Source: an uncultured Alphaproteobacteria bacterium
Lineage (GTDB): Bacteria > Pseudomonadota > Alphaproteobacteria > Rs-D84
Direction: 5' to 3'
Assembly: GCA_947367055.1 (NCBI GenBank)
Contig: CANBCI010000004.1
Span: 1-43,824, forward strand
DNA length: 43,824 bases
The notes below the pieces were generated by a model that was given only the letters and a program-made list of their open reading frames with translations, did no database searches and was not told the origin of the DNA. Both the position numbers and the translations under genes were made by a program. Position 1 is the stretch's first letter. Every line of letters begins with the position of its first letter. Below are positions 606 through 27,817 of this stretch, in pieces.

Positions 606-651
606 TATATCCTATGTTTCTTATCCCCCAAATGGGCAAAAATAGGATATA
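606..651. repeat. 9-bp inverted repeat upstream of the recombinase
   Basis: TATATCCTA at 606-614 and TAGGATATA at 643-651 are perfect inverted repeats separated by 28 bp. They lie between the recombinase start codon and the tRNA-Gly terminator. This could be an operator or a recombinase binding or crossover site. The sequence alone does not decide between them. Confidence 0.5.
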
Positions 652-680
652 AAAAAAGCCCGTCATTTGACGGGACTTTT
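651..680 (-). terminator. Intrinsic terminator of tRNA-Gly
   Basis: CCCGTC at 659-664 pairs with GACGGG at 669-674. The hairpin is flanked by A-runs and T-runs on both sides, so it can act in either direction. It follows tRNA-Gly on the minus strand. Confidence 0.8.
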
Positions 681-688
681 TGAATCCT

Positions 689-765
689 TGGTGCGAGCAA
701 AGGGACTCGAACCCTCGACCTCAACCTTGGCAAGGTTGCGCTCTAACCAACTGAGCTACGCTCGC
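689..765 (-). tRNA. tRNA-Gly(GCC)
   Basis: A full cloverleaf can be drawn on the minus strand. The acceptor stem GCGAGCG (759-765) pairs with TGCTCGC (693-699), the T-loop is TTCGAGT, and the anticodon loop is TTGCCAA with anticodon GCC. The CCA end is encoded (689-691). Confidence 0.97.
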
Positions 766-809
766 ACTGCGTGGGTAATTCTTACATATATTTTTACCCA
801 TTGCAAGTA

Positions 810-1127
810 TTATTTTTGTTTTATTTTTCCGCCACCATAATACCTTATTGAATCCAAGGAAAACCGACGCTGTTCCAGTTCCAACTGTTTCTCGCGGATA
901 TCCAGTTCACGTTGCTTTAACTGATTATTCATATAAATTCCATCCGCAATTCCATATAATGCCACCAGCGATAGACACGCCGCAAACGCTATTACGTACA
1001 GACGACCACCCCTCAAATGTACATCAAGCATTTGGGAATGATGCACATCCACACTCGGCCGGTTTTCAATTATAACTCGCTGGTAGTCAGGCATTATATT
1101 TTTCCAATTTATTACAACCATTTCCAC
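810..1127 (-). CDS. Small single-pass membrane protein, unknown function
   Basis: This 105-residue product is not recognised. It has a polar N-terminus, one transmembrane segment at about residues 43-65 (YVIAFAACLSLVALYGIADG) and a charged C-terminal helix rich in K, E, Q and R (LKQRELDIREKQLELEQRR) that looks like a short coiled coil. The start overlaps the 3' end of the upstream gene by 16 bases, which suggests translational coupling and a shared operon. An ATG two codons further in (1121) is an alternative start. It is the last gene of the long minus-strand run and is followed by tRNA-Gly. Confidence 0.6.
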   Translation of the reverse strand: MEMVVINWKNIMPDYQRVIIENRPSVDVHHSQMLDVHLRGGRLYVIAFAACLSLVALYGIADGIYMNNQLKQRELDIREKQLELEQRRFSLDSIRYYGGGKIKQK

Positions 1128-2098
1128 GGCTGCAAGACCTTTAACAGGCTGTACGCCGTGCGCTTGTCAACATATGTGTGGCCGCAACGCGGGCAAACCG
1201 CAAACGGACGCAACATGGCCTTGACCTTTTTGAACAGCATGAACCAGACAAACAACCCCAGCAACCATGCCGCCGCAACCAGCCCCCATGCAACATAACC
1301 AAAGTATTTGTTCACAGTTCCGGTAATTACATTTACAACATCTACATCGGATTTTTCCAAATCGTTATAGATTTTTGTCGCAACCGGCCATGACGACGGG
1401 CGCCACGGATAGACATGTTCAACATTATAACGGGTCAGCAACGTCGTCCCCAGGCCACCTGTATTTTTATCCAGCTGTTTCTTGATTGCTTCGTCAATCA
1501 TCTTGTCGAATTCCAGTTGCAGTGTGGATGTCAAATCCTTTTCAACCTTGTCCAATTTTTCATTTACCAGTGCGGCAGTGTTATCGACCTTTGCAATGGC
1601 GGAATCAGCCTTGGCAACACTGTCGTCAACCTTGTTCAAAGCCTTGTCAATGCCACTGGTGTTTACGCCAAGTTTACCCGCAACCCCGGTCAGTTTTTTT
1701 ACACCCGCCGTTTTTTCCGTGACGGCGGCATTCGCCTGCTTTGCCTTGGCGGTGGTGTCTGTAACCTTGTCAACCGCGCTTGAGGCCATTTTTACCTTGT
1801 CCACCGCGAATGCAATCGGCTTTTCCAGGTTAATTGCATCCTTTATTCCGTCCAACAATTGTTCGTACTGCTTTACAATATTTTGTTGCAAATCAAAGAA
1901 CATGGACACAACGATTGATTTCTTTATCGGTTCGGAATATTTATCCTTTACATGCAGCGGCGCAATAATAACAAACGACAGCCACAATATCGACACAATC
2001 GCAAACACGCGCTTTGTCCATGTAATAAAAGATGTTTTTTTCGCAACGGTTTTTGCGCCGCCGTGGTCAATTACTTCGACTTGTTTTTTCTTGGGCAT
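1112..2098 (-). CDS. Membrane protein with coiled coil and C-terminal zinc-ribbon-like motif, unknown function
   Basis: This is a 328-residue protein of unknown family. It has a basic start (MPKKKQVEV), a transmembrane segment at about residues 29-50, a long Ala/Lys/Asp/Val-rich central region with repeated VDK and AKAD-type heptads (residues 90-200, likely helical or coiled coil), a second transmembrane segment near residue 270-295, and a C-terminal CPRCG motif with few further metal ligands. The start is supported by AAGGAG eight bases upstream. The central part would lie in the periplasm if both segments span the membrane. It shares an operon with the 105-residue protein downstream. Confidence 0.65.
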   Translation of the reverse strand: MPKKKQVEVIDHGGAKTVAKKTSFITWTKRVFAIVSILWLSFVIIAPLHVKDKYSEPIKKSIVVSMFFDLQQNIVKQYEQLLDGIKDAINLEKPIAFAVDKVKMASSAVDKVTDTTAKAKQANAAVTEKTAGVKKLTGVAGKLGVNTSGIDKALNKVDDSVAKADSAIAKVDNTAALVNEKLDKVEKDLTSTLQLEFDKMIDEAIKKQLDKNTGGLGTTLLTRYNVEHVYPWRPSSWPVATKIYNDLEKSDVDVVNVITGTVNKYFGYVAWGLVAAAWLLGLFVWFMLFKKVKAMLRPFAVCPRCGHTYVDKRTAYSLLKVLQPWKWL

Positions 2099-11517: not shown

Positions 11518-11721
11518 AAACCGGCGCAACCGCCGGTTTGAATTTATGGCGCACCCAGAAGATTCCCTCGGCATATAAATGCCTGCGGGGAAACCGTGAC
11601 GGCTCGATTACACTGCATTCATCTCGCCTACTTGTTTTCGAACCAGGCTTCTCATCCTGGGATGCACAACATAAATTAAAACCGGCGCAATCGCCGGTTT
11701 GAATTTATGGCGCACCCAGAA
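11518..11721. repeat. 43-bp direct repeat carrying the tRNA-Arg 3' end plus terminator
   Basis: Positions 11518-11560 and 11679-11721 match in 42 of 43 bases. Each copy holds the last 14 bases of tRNA-Arg with its CCA, a short spacer and a terminator hairpin (AAACCGGCG/CGCCGGTTT). The intact tRNA uses the right copy. Such duplication of a tRNA 3' end is typical of integration sites, although here only 118 bp lie between the copies. Confidence 0.85.
11547..11665 (-). other. 119-nt structured tRNA-end-like unit, possibly a remnant or an ncRNA
   Basis: On the minus strand GCATCCCAG (11657-11665) can pair with CTGGGTGC (11551-11558), which is followed by G and CCA, exactly as in the neighbouring tRNA-Arg. 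Inside are a GGTTCGAA T-loop-like string, CCAGG/CCTGG, and a strong nested hairpin (TTCCC...GGCAT-TTAT-ATGCC...GGGAA). It does not fold into a normal tRNA and has no anticodon arm. It is followed by a terminator (11518-11540). I do not recognise it as tmRNA, 4.5S RNA, 6S RNA or RNase P RNA. Confidence 0.4.
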
Positions 11722-11784
11722 GGATTCGAACCCTCAACCTTCTGATCCGTAGTCAGATGCTCTATCCAATTGAGCCATGGGTGC
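11708..11784 (-). tRNA. tRNA-Arg(ACG)
   Basis: The acceptor stem GCACCCA (11778-11784) pairs with TGGGTGC (11712-11718). The anticodon loop is CTACGGA with ACG (wobble A read as inosine), the T-loop TTCGAAT, and CCA is encoded. A terminator hairpin follows at 11679-11701. Confidence 0.97.
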
Positions 11785-11839: not shown

Positions 11840-11868
11840 TTGTAAAATAATTGCAAATGCAGTATAAT
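11840..11868 (+). promoter_or_regulatory. Predicted promoter of the structured leader before the 12070 gene
   Basis: TTGTAA (11840-11845) and TATAAT (11863-11868) have a 17-bp spacer. The expected start (about 11875) falls on the first base of the leader's 5' hairpin. Confidence 0.75.
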
Positions 11869-11874
11869 CTGCTT

Positions 11875-12069
11875 GATGTGCATGGAACGCACATCGGGAT
11901 GTCGAAACCCATAAGTTATAGTGTCCGAGGGGACAATAAATACCTCCAATCAAACCAAGGTTGGAGGGTGGCGATATATCTAAATAAGCCCACTATTTCC
12001 TATAACTTAATAGTTTCGAACCTCCAACCACCATTCGTTTGGTGGTATTTGGTGTTAAAAGGAGAAATT
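11875..12069 (+). promoter_or_regulatory. Structured 5' leader RNA, type member of a repeated leader family
   Basis: The leader holds, in order: hairpin H1 (GATGTGC 11875-11881 / GCACATC 11889-11895); a GGG/CCC hairpin whose loop includes TCGAAAC (11902-11908); TAAGTTATAG (11912-11921); hairpin TGTCC/GGACA (11922-11935); P4, CCTCCAA (11943-11949) with TTGGAGG (11961-11967); P3, GTGG...CCAC (11968-11993) with loop GATATATCTAAATAA; CTATAACTTA (12000-12009) and GTTTCGA (12013-12019), which pair with the two upstream strands (P2, 10+7 bp); CCTCCAACC (12021-12029), which can pair with GGTTGGAGG at 11959-11967 (P1, exclusive with P4); and P0, CCACC/GGTGG (12028-12045). AAGGAG and the ATG follow. 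The same plan recurs before 16754 and 26906. No riboswitch class I know fits. Confidence 0.8.
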
Positions 12070-13008
12070 ATGAAAAAATCTTTTATACTGGGATGCATAA
12101 TGTTGCCCATGGCGGCATTTGCCGACATTATTGCCGATGCACAATCCCAACTACAGGCGACGCGCATAATATGTGACGGCATATCCGATGATTTATCACG
12201 CGTGTCAGGCGTCGCAAAAACAGACAGCGCAATTACTGCGATTGGCACGGTCGCGGGTGGCGGCGCGGTGTATGCCGGATTTAAAAAATTAAAATGGGAT
12301 CAAGAAATTGAAACGTTAATGGATAAAATGTGCGCCGGTGGCGGATGTTCTGCAAACGCTATAAAATCAATGTCAGATGATGATTTCGTAGAAAATGTTC
12401 TAACCCCAATGGCGGACATGTCAAAGTTGGCCGATGAAATTGCCAATGCGGAAAAGAAATCAAAAAAGCTGGGTAATTGGCGTACGGGGTTGATGGCGGG
12501 AAATGCCGCAACCAATATTGCGTCATCTATTATAGCCGGACTGAATAAAAATCAGTCCGATTTGGTTCAGCACATCATTGCGTGCAATAATTCTTTGAGT
12601 GACTTAAATTCCGCCTATTATAATTTATTGGATGCGGGAATAAATCCGTATGAAAATCCCATTATGACCAAAATCGTCAAAATTAGGGATAATTGCGGCG
12701 AAATCAGCAGCAAGGATATTGCGGAGATAGAACAAAGTATGTCCAGAACTATGGAAATTGGTATTGCAGGGGGCGCCATAGGTGTTGCCGGCACTGCGGT
12801 AAGCGCTACCGCAAATTCCGACAAAACTCGCAATAACAACAGCGAGAAGGGCCAACAAAAAGAAGAAAAATTAAATTTCACCGCAAATATATTGGGTGTT
12901 GTCAGCACCGGGAGCAGCGTTTTAGGCACAGTCTCCAACATATCAACGGTTTCAACAATTAAAAAGCTCATCAAACGGGCGCAATATTGCGAGGAGGCTT
13001 TACAATGA
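12070..13008 (+). CDS. Exported protein of unknown function under the structured leader
   Basis: The 312-residue protein starts MKKSFILGCIMLPMAAFA, a signal peptide cleaved near residue 18; AGGAG lies 6 bases upstream. The mature part is helical and polar, with three Gly/Ala/Val/Ser-rich hydrophobic stretches (AIGTVAGGGAVYAG, GIAGGAIGVAGTAVSA, ILGVVSTGSSVLGTVS) that resemble glycine-zipper segments and might insert in a membrane. Cysteines recur in pairs (CAGGGC). The family is not recognised. Its TGA stop overlaps the ATG of the next gene (ATGA), so the two are cotranslated. A longer ORF (from 11851) runs through the leader and is not supported. Confidence 0.75.
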   Translation: MKKSFILGCIMLPMAAFADIIADAQSQLQATRIICDGISDDLSRVSGVAKTDSAITAIGTVAGGGAVYAGFKKLKWDQEIETLMDKMCAGGGCSANAIKSMSDDDFVENVLTPMADMSKLADEIANAEKKSKKLGNWRTGLMAGNAATNIASSIIAGLNKNQSDLVQHIIACNNSLSDLNSAYYNLLDAGINPYENPIMTKIVKIRDNCGEISSKDIAEIEQSMSRTMEIGIAGGAIGVAGTAVSATANSDKTRNNNSEKGQQKEEKLNFTANILGVVSTGSSVLGTVSNISTVSTIKKLIKRAQYCEEALQ

Positions 13009-16346: not shown

Positions 16347-16754
16347 TTATTTTATGTCCCTAAAAATTGCAGTGCGAAACGGTTTGTTTGACACAATGTC
16401 ACGCGCGCAAAAACTGGCACACCAATTTTCGCATTCATTTGCGTAAACATAACTGCGCAAAAACACATACTGTGACCGAAAGGGATTTGATATTCGGCAC
16501 CAGCATCCAATTGCATCATCGGCATCTTCGGGCGCGGGCAACGTTTCGGCCTGCGTATATGCGCGCGCTTCAACATCGGTGCAAACACCGACACCCTTGA
16601 CCGTCAGTTCATCCGTGCTGTTATCGCATAACGCCGCCCAATTATCACCGGAATATTCCGAATTTTTACACTTTATTTCCGGCGGCAGCATTTTGGCGCA
16701 ATACGCCGCCTGTGAAATAAACGCCAGACCAGTGGCAATCATCAGATATTTCAT
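16347..16754 (-). CDS. Small cysteine-rich exported protein under a structured leader
   Basis: This 135-residue protein begins with a signal peptide (MKYLMIATGLAFISQAAYC, cleaved near residue 19). The mature region has ten cysteines, including KCKNSEY, ALCDNS, GVCTD, GCWCRISNPF, NECENWCASFC, enough for several disulfides. No family is recognised; it ends in a short basic stretch (RTAIFRDIK). AAGGGG lies 9 bases before the ATG. It is transcribed from a strong predicted promoter at 16996-17024 through a 235-nt structured leader of the same design as those before 12070 and 26906. Confidence 0.75.
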   Translation of the reverse strand: MKYLMIATGLAFISQAAYCAKMLPPEIKCKNSEYSGDNWAALCDNSTDELTVKGVGVCTDVEARAYTQAETLPAPEDADDAIGCWCRISNPFRSQYVFLRSYVYANECENWCASFCARDIVSNKPFRTAIFRDIK

Positions 16755-16989
16755 TTTCTATTTCCCCTTTGGTTAAAGAACAAAACCACCAAAATTGGTG
16801 GTCGGGAAGTTAGAAAAATCATAAATCAGAATGATCCCGCTGGTCTTTGGGCGAACCCTGTTGTATAACCAACGGCCTCCCGACAAGGCGCCGGGCAAGC
16901 ACGGGAACGTCCCGTGGCATTGGATACGGTGCACTGCACCGCTGATTTATGGGATTTTCTACGTCCCGAACCCACATCCCTGCGGATTC
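16755..16989 (-). promoter_or_regulatory. Structured 5' leader RNA, divergent member of the family
   Basis: Read on the minus strand from about 16989: a GGG/CCC hairpin containing TAGAAAATC (16953-16961); ATAAATCAG (16942-16950); hairpin GGTGCA/TGCACC (16929-16940); strong hairpin CACGGGA/TCCCGTG (16900-16916); CCCG/CGGG (P4); GTCGGGA (16878-16884); a two-hairpin arm in place of the P3 loop; CTGATTTAT (16821-16829) and GATTTTTCTA (16811-16820), which pair back to the first two strands (P2); TCCCGAC (16801-16807), which pairs with GTCGGGA (P1); P0 CCACC/GGTGG (16786-16801); then AAGGGG and the ATG at 16754. Every stem has sequence unlike the 12070 leader, yet the plan is kept. The conserved 15-nt P3 loop is absent here. 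Confidence 0.75.
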
Positions 16990-26345: not shown

Positions 26346-26906
26346 TTAATCCTTTTTGTTATATAAATCCCACAGATATTCAAATTGCTGTGAAAATGGT
26401 ACCGACATGTCATCCATAAATATGCAGTTTTCCGCATTGTCACGCGTCGCCGTATATGTCCAATTGTATGAACCGCTTACCACCATTTTATTATCAAATA
26501 TGGCAAATTTGTTGTGCATTATGCGGTGCAACAGATTTTCATTCGCGGGCTTTGATTCGCCGCCCTTTTTATATATCATTCGATATTCATAATTCGTGAC
26601 AAATGGTATGCCGGCTTTCTTTAGTTCCTGTGTGACGGAATATTTACCCTTTGACTGCTGATAATCTGCAATTATGCGAATGTTTGCGCCGCGGTTATGT
26701 GCGCGGATTAACGCATCACGAATATTATGGTTTGTAATGGAATACACGGCCACATCAATATTATTGGCACCGTTAATATTTTTTATTATTTGGTCTTCGC
26801 AGTCGGTTCCCGGCGAAAAATAAACGCGTGGCGCCGAACATATTGCAACATTGCCGACACAAATAACGCCAATTGCGGCAATCGCCGCAGTGGTTAATTT
26901 TTGCAT
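26346..26906 (-). CDS. Exported phospholipase D-superfamily nuclease (Nuc-like)
   Basis: The 186-residue protein has a signal peptide (MQKLTTAAIAAIGVICVGNVAICSA) and one HKD motif: H131, K133, D138 in MHNKFAIFDNK, followed by GSYNWT. Length, single HKD and VAVYSITNHNIRDALIRAHNRGANIRII are typical of Nuc/endonuclease-like PLD proteins, which act as dimers on DNA without metal. Exported Nuc enzymes degrade extracellular or periplasmic DNA. It is the third exported-protein gene preceded by the structured leader (26907-27118). The G-run GGGGGGAT lies near the ATG as the ribosome-binding site. Confidence 0.9.
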   Translation of the reverse strand: MQKLTTAAIAAIGVICVGNVAICSAPRVYFSPGTDCEDQIIKNINGANNIDVAVYSITNHNIRDALIRAHNRGANIRIIADYQQSKGKYSVTQELKKAGIPFVTNYEYRMIYKKGGESKPANENLLHRIMHNKFAIFDNKMVVSGSYNWTYTATRDNAENCIFMDDMSVPFSQQFEYLWDLYNKKD

Positions 26907-27118
26907 ATCTCATCCCCCCATTTTGTGTTTATACAAAAACAAAAACCACTGGAAAACTTTCAAGTGGTTGGAGTTTGAAATGATAGTTAAGTATATCCTC
27001 GGCTTATTCAAGTATTCAGCCGAACTCCAACCAAATCAGGTTGGACGTGATTGCGCACACGCGGGCGACTTAACTAACGAGATTTCAAGCTCGCTATAAC
27101 AGAGAGAACCTATTACAA
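26907..27118 (-). promoter_or_regulatory. Structured 5' leader RNA of the PLD gene (family member)
   Basis: Minus strand, from about 27118: CGAG/CTCG hairpin (27078-27093) with loop strand TTGAAAT (27082-27088); TAGTTAAGT (27068-27076); CGTG/CACG hairpin (27046-27061); P4, CCAACC (27039-27044) with GGTTGG (27027-27032); P3, TCGGC/GCCGA (26999-27023) with loop TGAATACTTGAATAA; ACTTAACTA (26984-26992) and ATTTCAA (26975-26981), which pair with the first strands (P2, 9+7 bp); AACTCCAACC (26966-26975), which can pair with GGTTGGAGTT (27023-27032, P1); and P0, CCACT/AGTGG (26946-26967). The gap to the ATG is 39 bases. The 5' end shares the string AATTGTAATAGG with the copy at 27180. Confidence 0.75.
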
Positions 27119-27179: not shown

Positions 27180-27350
27180 CCGCTATACAAGATAGACGGA
27201 TTGGAGGTTAGTCTTAACATTCTGGAATGCGCACAGCCTATTCAATATATTCAGCCGCCTCCAATCCTGTTTTGGATTGGCGTTTAACGCCCGCGTGGCG
27301 TCCAGAATGCGAGAGACTAATCTCGCATAATAGGCTCACCTATTACAATT
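27180..27350 (-). promoter_or_regulatory. Orphan full copy of the structured leader, not next to a gene
   Basis: Read on the minus strand: AATAGG/CCTATT hairpin (27329-27344); GCGAGA/TCTCGC hairpin (27309-27326) whose whole loop TTAGTC (27315-27320) pairs with GACTAA (27208-27213); CATTCTGGA (27301-27309) pairs with TCCAGAATG (27218-27226); P4, CCAATCC (27274-27280) with GGATTGG (27261-27267); P1, GGATTGGAGG (27258-27267) with CCTCCAATCC (27198-27207); P0, CCG/CGG with CTAT/ATAG (27180-27199). Compared with its neighbour, an A-T change is matched in all three P1/P4 strands. It has its own predicted promoter but runs towards the PLD leader, not into a nearby ORF. Confidence 0.7.
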
Positions 27351-27562: not shown

Positions 27563-27646
27563 CCCGAAAACTTTCATGCGGTTGGAGGTTAAGAACTATA
27601 ATACTCAATAGTGTCACTTATTCAAATATATCGTGACCCTCCAACC
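27563..27646 (-). repeat. Partial copy of the structured leader
   Basis: Holds CCTCCAACC/GGTTGGAGG (27580-27588 with 27638-27646), the GTCAC/GTGAC hairpin (27613-27637) with loop GATATATTTGAATAA on the minus strand, and a P0-like GAAAACTTTCA segment shared with the PLD leader. The outer P2 partner and promoter part are missing. Confidence 0.7.
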
Positions 27647-27669
27647 ATATGTGATTAAAATATTGTTTA

Positions 27670-27736
27670 TGTTGGAGGTTCAAAACCATTAAGGCTAATA
27701 GCGTCGTTTATTCAATATATTCACGACCCTCCAACC
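27670..27736 (-). repeat. Second partial copy of the structured leader
   Basis: GTTGGAGG (27671-27678) pairs with CCTCCAAC (27728-27735), and GTCGT/ACGAC (27703-27727) closes the conserved loop GAATATATTGAATAA (minus strand). P0 and the P2 partner are absent, as in the adjacent partial copy. Confidence 0.7.
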
Positions 27737-27817
27737 GTATGTATTTTATCCCATGTGTTATATAAATTGCAATCAATTATTACTAAAATTCACCCGGGGT
27801 AAATCGCCAGCAGCACT

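Follow-up and report, generated by a model that had tools for sequence, protein, structure and literature searches.

A candidate four-segment transcription attenuator with an sRNA-Xcc1-like core in front of exported-protein genes of Candidatus Enterousia and related Alphaproteobacteria

What kind of RNA precedes the exported-protein gene that starts at position 12070 of contig CANBCI010000004.1? The window, i.e. the whole 43,824 nt stretch of DNA that we analysed, belongs to a 0.96 Mb metagenome-assembled genome (MAG) of Candidatus Enterousia, in the GTDB order Rs-D84, and a 195-nt leader (11875-12069) lies directly 5' of the ATG at 12070, with an AGGAG ribosome-binding site just before the ATG. 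The original prediction, made from this DNA, had proposed a new, repeated, structured leader RNA with the form of a genetic switch. We read the leader as a cis-acting, pseudoknot-capable transcription attenuator of four segments, to which we give a probability of about 0.72. The parts first named, a promoter at the first hairpin, a long two-part stem, a strand with two possible partners and a hairpin beside the ribosome-binding site, are all present in the sequence and the fold, and the leader RNA folds at -68.3 kcal/mol, compared with -44.4 kcal/mol in shuffles (z = -5.3; none of 200 shuffles folded equally well).

The family goes far beyond the four copies first pointed out. Searches with blastn found 14 places in the same genome and more copies in nine other genomes of the genus; an alignment of 36 copies (A1) yielded the covariance model R1, which hits the 0.96 Mb genome 47 times (E ≤ 0.001), and an independent alignment of 36 distant copies (A5) yielded a second model, R2. 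Seven further copies in the same genome, forming a second subclass, came from a search with the Rfam family RF02221 (the small RNA sRNA-Xcc1). The genomes are MAGs and the E-values rest on a short calibration. In most copies a -10-like box again stands immediately 5' of the first hairpin (P0), which reaches at least 5 bp in 124 of 144 copies and in 405 of 720 shuffled sequences.

Covariation in homologues had been proposed as a check on the prediction, and in both alignments all the named helices covary beyond 500 shuffles and slid controls. In A1, changes on both sides occur in six of six pairs of the helix L1, five of five pairs of hairpin A and four of five pairs of P3, with a covariation score of 0.340 against 0.123 in shuffled and at most 0.067 in slid alignments (0 of 500 shuffles reach 0.340), and in A5 seven of seven L1 pairs covary (0.609 vs. 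0.228). L1 cells are paired in 99.5% of cases in A1 and 99.2% in A5. L2 is poorly handled by the alignment and was therefore scored within and between copies: strands from the same copy give a helix score of 18.3, strands from different copies 10.3. The loop of hairpin A contains GAAUA and AAUAA strands, whose places are exchanged around a new terminal hairpin in family f2 as well as in other orders; since the motif is kept through this swap it is probably a three-dimensional module. We take it to resemble the UAA/GAN internal-loop motif, as GAA and UAA strands face each other in hairpin A, an assignment made from sequence only.

The element that would make the leader a switch is segment 2, GGUUGGAGG, which is complementary to an upstream partner (segment 1) and a downstream partner (segment 3) alike. 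Other copies carry GGCAGGAGG, GUCAGGAGG, GGCUGGAGG and others in its place, and the GGA within it is the most invariant part of the element. Between segments 2 and 3, 357 of 360 pairs are formed, and none of 5000 shuffles exceeded 315; between segments 2 and 1 the count is 337 of 360, with a shuffled maximum of 302, a figure partly favoured because segment 1 was chosen as the best helix in each copy. In a fairer test the segment 1:2 helix scored 17.1 with its own strands and 13.9 with strands from mismatched copies. The three segments vary together, as would be expected of two mutually exclusive stems, P4 (1:2) and P1 (2:3), with a common strand, and this three-strand covariation agrees with the exclusive choice of partner first proposed for the G-rich strand. 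The argument for a switch comes from the anatomy.

The last ACC of segment 3 doubles as the start of a further stem. A hairpin with a U-rich tail continues from segment 3 in 74 of 92 Enterousia-type copies, and the 5' arm of a terminator-like hairpin overlaps segment 3 in 68 of these 92, compared with 23 of 460 shuffles (5%). The hairpin beside the ribosome-binding site, labelled P0 in the original prediction, does exist, yet we prefer to see in it an intrinsic-terminator stem, the 5' arm of which overlaps the partner strand of P1; its U-run is weak here and strong in most copies. Outside the order these terminator hairpins often have the loop CUCAUCA (loci L262-L281), which is missing from Enterousia copies.

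The genes behind the leaders are a biased set. The leader usually ends up ca. 40-60 nt 5' of the start codon, a near-constant position. By a simple home-made rule, a signal-peptide start is present in 22 of 31 leader genes; the comparison set, 129 other genes from those parts of this genome that were fetched, has 23 (p = 2.7e-8, odds ratio 11), several of which share operons with leader genes. Pfam matches among leader genes include outer-membrane barrels, trypsin, PAP2, PLD (PLDc_2) and glycosyltransferase, and most of the leader genes lacking a signal peptide encode small helix-turn-helix proteins. Outer-membrane barrels also follow the leader elsewhere in the class, in other orders, as, judged by eye, do lipoproteins and pilin-like proteins. 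Together with the helix covariation, this enrichment points, as first proposed, to a cis-acting leader of exported-protein genes.

In the mechanism that we propose, transcription would begin at the P0 hairpin and segment 2 (GGUUGGAGG) would pair first with segment 1 (CCUCCAAUC) to form P4; L1 and L2 would then close over P4, and segment 3 (CCUCCAACCACC) would remain available to pair with segment 4 (GGUGGU-U-run) as the terminator hairpin. Pairings 1:2 and 3:4 would be the OFF state and 2:3 the ON state: a factor favouring P1 would remove the base of the terminator stem, and polymerase would read into the exported-protein gene. P1 could coexist with L1/L2 only in a pseudoknot; otherwise hairpin B would have to take the place of L2. 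Hairpin B and L2 should themselves be exclusive or pseudoknotted, because the 3' strand of L2 sits in the loop of hairpin B. The comparison between copies shows the helices, their mutual exclusion, the overlap with the terminator and the gene association, whilst we infer the default OFF direction and the existence of a sensed signal, for which a small molecule, a protein or an RNA are candidates. Nested minimum free energy (MFE) structures contain P4 in 55 of 60 copies.

Several observations weigh against this mechanism. Only 11 of 32 copies in other families of the order carry a terminator overlapping P1, and the leader at 11875-12069 itself, like the remaining 21 of these 32, has no good U-run terminator there, so that in such copies control may act at translation or be absent. 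Terminator strands pair only weakly better within than between copies (7.8 vs. 6.7), the P1 state lies ca. 11 kcal/mol above the MFE in nested folding, which excludes pseudoknots, and truncated cores and tandem arrays occur with no gene directly behind them.

The proposed attenuator recalls those of the trp and his operons, in which segments 1:2, 2:3 and 3:4 pair exclusively and 3:4 is an intrinsic terminator. It differs in having a 5' half that covaries and can fold as a pseudoknot, and inspection by eye showed neither a ribosome-binding site nor a conserved leader-peptide frame before segment 1. Riboswitches for cyclic-di-GMP and ZTP also control terminators, and share with the leader an aptamer-like fold coupled to an antiterminator and terminator; the leader differs from them in having no Rfam riboswitch match, and in copy number and gene set. 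A strict riboswitch, in which the fold of L1, L2 and hairpin A binds one small metabolite, would be a special case of the attenuator and is the alternative that survives best, although we think it rather unlikely. The compact pseudoknot-capable fold, the GAAUA/AAUAA loop kept despite the strand swap and the pairing of switch with terminator all suit it, but some 50 copies per 0.96 Mb in front of varied surface genes would be unusual for a metabolite sensor, and the leader genes have no metabolic gene in common. Cyclic-di-GMP is an unlikely ligand in this genome, which is 96% complete, because it has no GGDEF proteins; GGDEF is present in the seven further carrier genomes that were searched.

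The relation to sRNA-Xcc1 raises a second alternative, namely that the element is a member of that family, an independent trans-acting small RNA whose position before genes is secondary. RF02221 matches the 3' half of the leader at 28.9 bits, below its gathering cut-off of 53 bits. Its 12 matches in the same genome (E up to 1) are all leaders, aligned over the full length in the same register (model positions 1-87); among 11 genomes it never reaches the cut-off (best 52.9 bits), and 14 control genomes gave two weak sub-threshold cases only. Both RNAs have a 9-bp P1 closing two hairpins and the same run-out, CCACC. The transcript mapped in Xcc by rapid amplification of cDNA ends (RACE) and Northern blot is 88 nt long (PMC2996969), and in Xylella sRNA-Xcc1 forms a tandem cluster (PMC12189769). 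The two core-only tandem copies in the window (27597-27736) also fit a free-standing RNA. However, no copy reaches the family cut-off, the covarying 5' strand of L1, L2, P3 and segment 1 lie upstream of the RF02221 model, and placement before start codons is constant, with terminator overlap. In Xanthomonas integron cassettes sRNA-Xcc1 is itself found 5' of symE, a leader-like position (PMC12444791). We regard the trans-acting reading as improbable. In our reading the leader core is a homologue of sRNA-Xcc1 and not a formal member of RF02221: sRNA-Xcc1 has been described as an 88-nt trans-acting RNA, whereas here its core would sit within a cis-acting leader that adds a covarying 5' half (P0, L1, L2, P3, segment 1), a terminator and exported-protein genes downstream. 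The novelty first claimed for the RNA accordingly needs qualifying. With Rfam 15, only tRNA exceeded the gathering score in the window and 20 loci, which gave no known riboswitch or leader family, and open-licence papers found in literature searches do not describe this leader, but in its 3' half it is related, below threshold and in register, to a known family. The only Xanthomonas symE plasmid found (NZ_CP021010.1) has an IS5-type element in front of symE; just before the gene, at 2640-2670 (within 2640-2715) of that locus (L323), is a remnant, GGTTTCTAACCTCCCGAC, similar to the 3' strand of L1 together with segment 3; the remainder is lost to the IS5-type element. As a relic of a leader it is suggestive only.

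Many copies, tandem arrays (G000:C3:144126-145458), truncated cores and unrelated genes downstream might also come from a mobile repeat, similar to a miniature inverted-repeat transposable element (MITE) or a repetitive extragenic palindrome (REP), that enters intergenic regions carrying a promoter; yet stem sequences differ among copies while pairing persists, inspection by eye revealed neither constant ends nor target duplications, the distance to the start codon is nearly fixed and gene choice is biased, which leaves this origin very improbable. A leader bound by CsrA/RsmA at the invariant GGA of segment 2 is nearly refuted, as CsrA is above the family cut-off in none of the eight RNA-carrying genomes searched.

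Table 1. Positions of the leader parts, its downstream genes and its relatives in the window
Feature	Position	Strand	Basis or remark
Promoter -10 box TATAAT	11863-11868	+	Read from sequence
P0, 5' hairpin (GATGTGC/GCACATC)	11875-11895	+	Fold
Conserved element	11896-12029	+	R1 108.3 bits, R2 55.2 bits
L1 5' strand, partner 12013-12019	11902-11908	+	All pairs covary
L2 5' strand, partner 12000-12009	11912-11921	+	Own-versus-mismatched-copy helix test
P3, small hairpin (TGTCC/GGACA)	11922-11935	+	4/5 pairs covary; short copies lack P3
Segment 1, upstream partner CCTCCAATC, P4 with 11959-11967	11943-11951	+	Three-strand covariation
Segment 2, GGTTGGAGG, strand common to P4 and P1	11959-11967	+	Three-strand covariation
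Match to RF02221 (sRNA-Xcc1), model positions 1-87	11959-12037	+	28.9 bits, cut-off 53
Hairpin A, conserved loop GAUAUAUCUAAAUAA (GAAUA/AAUAA internal-loop motif)	11968-11993	+	5/5 stem pairs covary
Hairpin B (CTATT/AATAG)	11993-12013	+	97.9% of cells paired; 6 copies swap UA for AU
L1 3' strand	12013-12019	+	Covariation, A1 and A5
Segment 3, CCTCCAACC, P1 with 11959-11967	12021-12029	+	98.8% of cells paired; three-strand covariation
Terminator-like hairpin ACCACCA/TGGTGGT (segments 3:4), weak U-run	12027-12046	+	Stem overlaps P1 in most Enterousia-type copies
Gene for 312-aa protein with signal peptide	12070-13008	+	No Pfam match
Following exported-protein open reading frames	13005, 13938, 15129
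Second-subclass leader before exported protein 16347-16754(-)	16755-16989	-	RF02221 core 16793-16884, 39.2 bits
Full leader copy before PLD-like exported protein 26346-26906(-)	26966-27094	-	R1 54.7 bits
Second full copy, tandem, 5' of the previous	27199-27325	-	R1 38.2 bits
Two tandem core-only copies (P1, hairpins A and B; no L1/L2/P4)	27597-27736	-	R1

Besides the leader at 11875-12069, R1 has four matches in the window. Two are the full copies in Table 1, which correspond to repeats first noted at 26907-27118 and 27180-27350, and two are truncated cores (match extents 27670-27791(-) and 27597-27669(-)). In one core-only copy (27670-27736) a promoter-like box immediately precedes P1, and no obvious gene lies directly behind. 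These core-only copies could be stand-alone RNAs like sRNA-Xcc1, and suggest that leader and core-only forms are both present here. The same plan had also been recognised before 16754; R1 misses this leader (3.7 bits, no detection), whilst RF02221 finds it plus six similar ones, and it can be aligned with 11 similar second-subclass leaders, in which P1 is GGUCGGGGG and the hairpin A motif is UUAUANAACAGG.

A covariance model and a search of related genomes had been suggested as a check, and R1 matches 170 of 190 genomes of the order Rs-D84, plus ten more genomes outside it in a class-wide sample. R2 matches 24 of 385 alphaproteobacterial genomes, 20 of them outside the genus and all of 0.9-2.2 Mb; in a phylum-wide sample of 398 genomes it found its own genus and nothing outside. 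Database records with the same motif come from Candidatus Enterousia and other gut or termite alphaproteobacterial MAGs, whilst searches of plasmids, phages and viral contigs for intact relatives gave nothing useful. The order of Enterousia is described as one of reduced-genome, probably partner-dependent bacteria (PMC12306168); no cultured member was found for Rs-D84-type bacteria, which lack most biosynthesis. A structured RNA before ca. 5% of genes, mostly exported ones, offers a handle on the surface regulon and on the search for its signal. We advance only tentatively, at somewhat less than even odds, that a single orphan switch, repeated ca. 50 times per genome, acts as master control over the surface and secreted proteome in these reduced-genome gut and termite Alphaproteobacteria, with sRNA-Xcc1, which has been described in Xanthomonas and Xylella as a trans-acting small RNA linked to virulence, as the core of the same switch and one signal or protein setting the whole regulon. 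For the plant-pathogen RNA the link gives a testable claim, namely that it originated as a cis-acting attenuator, or remains one, and is not only a trans-acting small RNA.

Some further loci are of note. At L020 (G000:C3:143500-147700, positions 626-1900(-)) the tandem array has about seven leader units ca. 225 nt apart, some with two truncated cores, and stands (at G000:C3:144126-145458) before a small helix-turn-helix gene (MSGRPFKPSEID...). Similar exported proteins with a MAGINT motif follow a subclass-1 leader in L226 and a subclass-2 leader in L306, so the subclasses may be exchangeable. Full leaders also occur on three IMG/VR contigs filed as viral (L226, L227 and L228), which may be misfiled host DNA or proviruses; in L226 and L228 the gene behind the leader encodes a relative (MAGINT...) of exported proteins like the one that follows the leader in L306. 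Upstream of the leader in the window, ca. 45 bp (AACCGGCGCAA..CGCCGGTTTGAATTTATGGCGCACCCAGAAG) are present twice, at ~11525 and ~11685 (window 11525-11720), next to the tRNA at 11711-11784(-), and look like a partly duplicated tRNA end.
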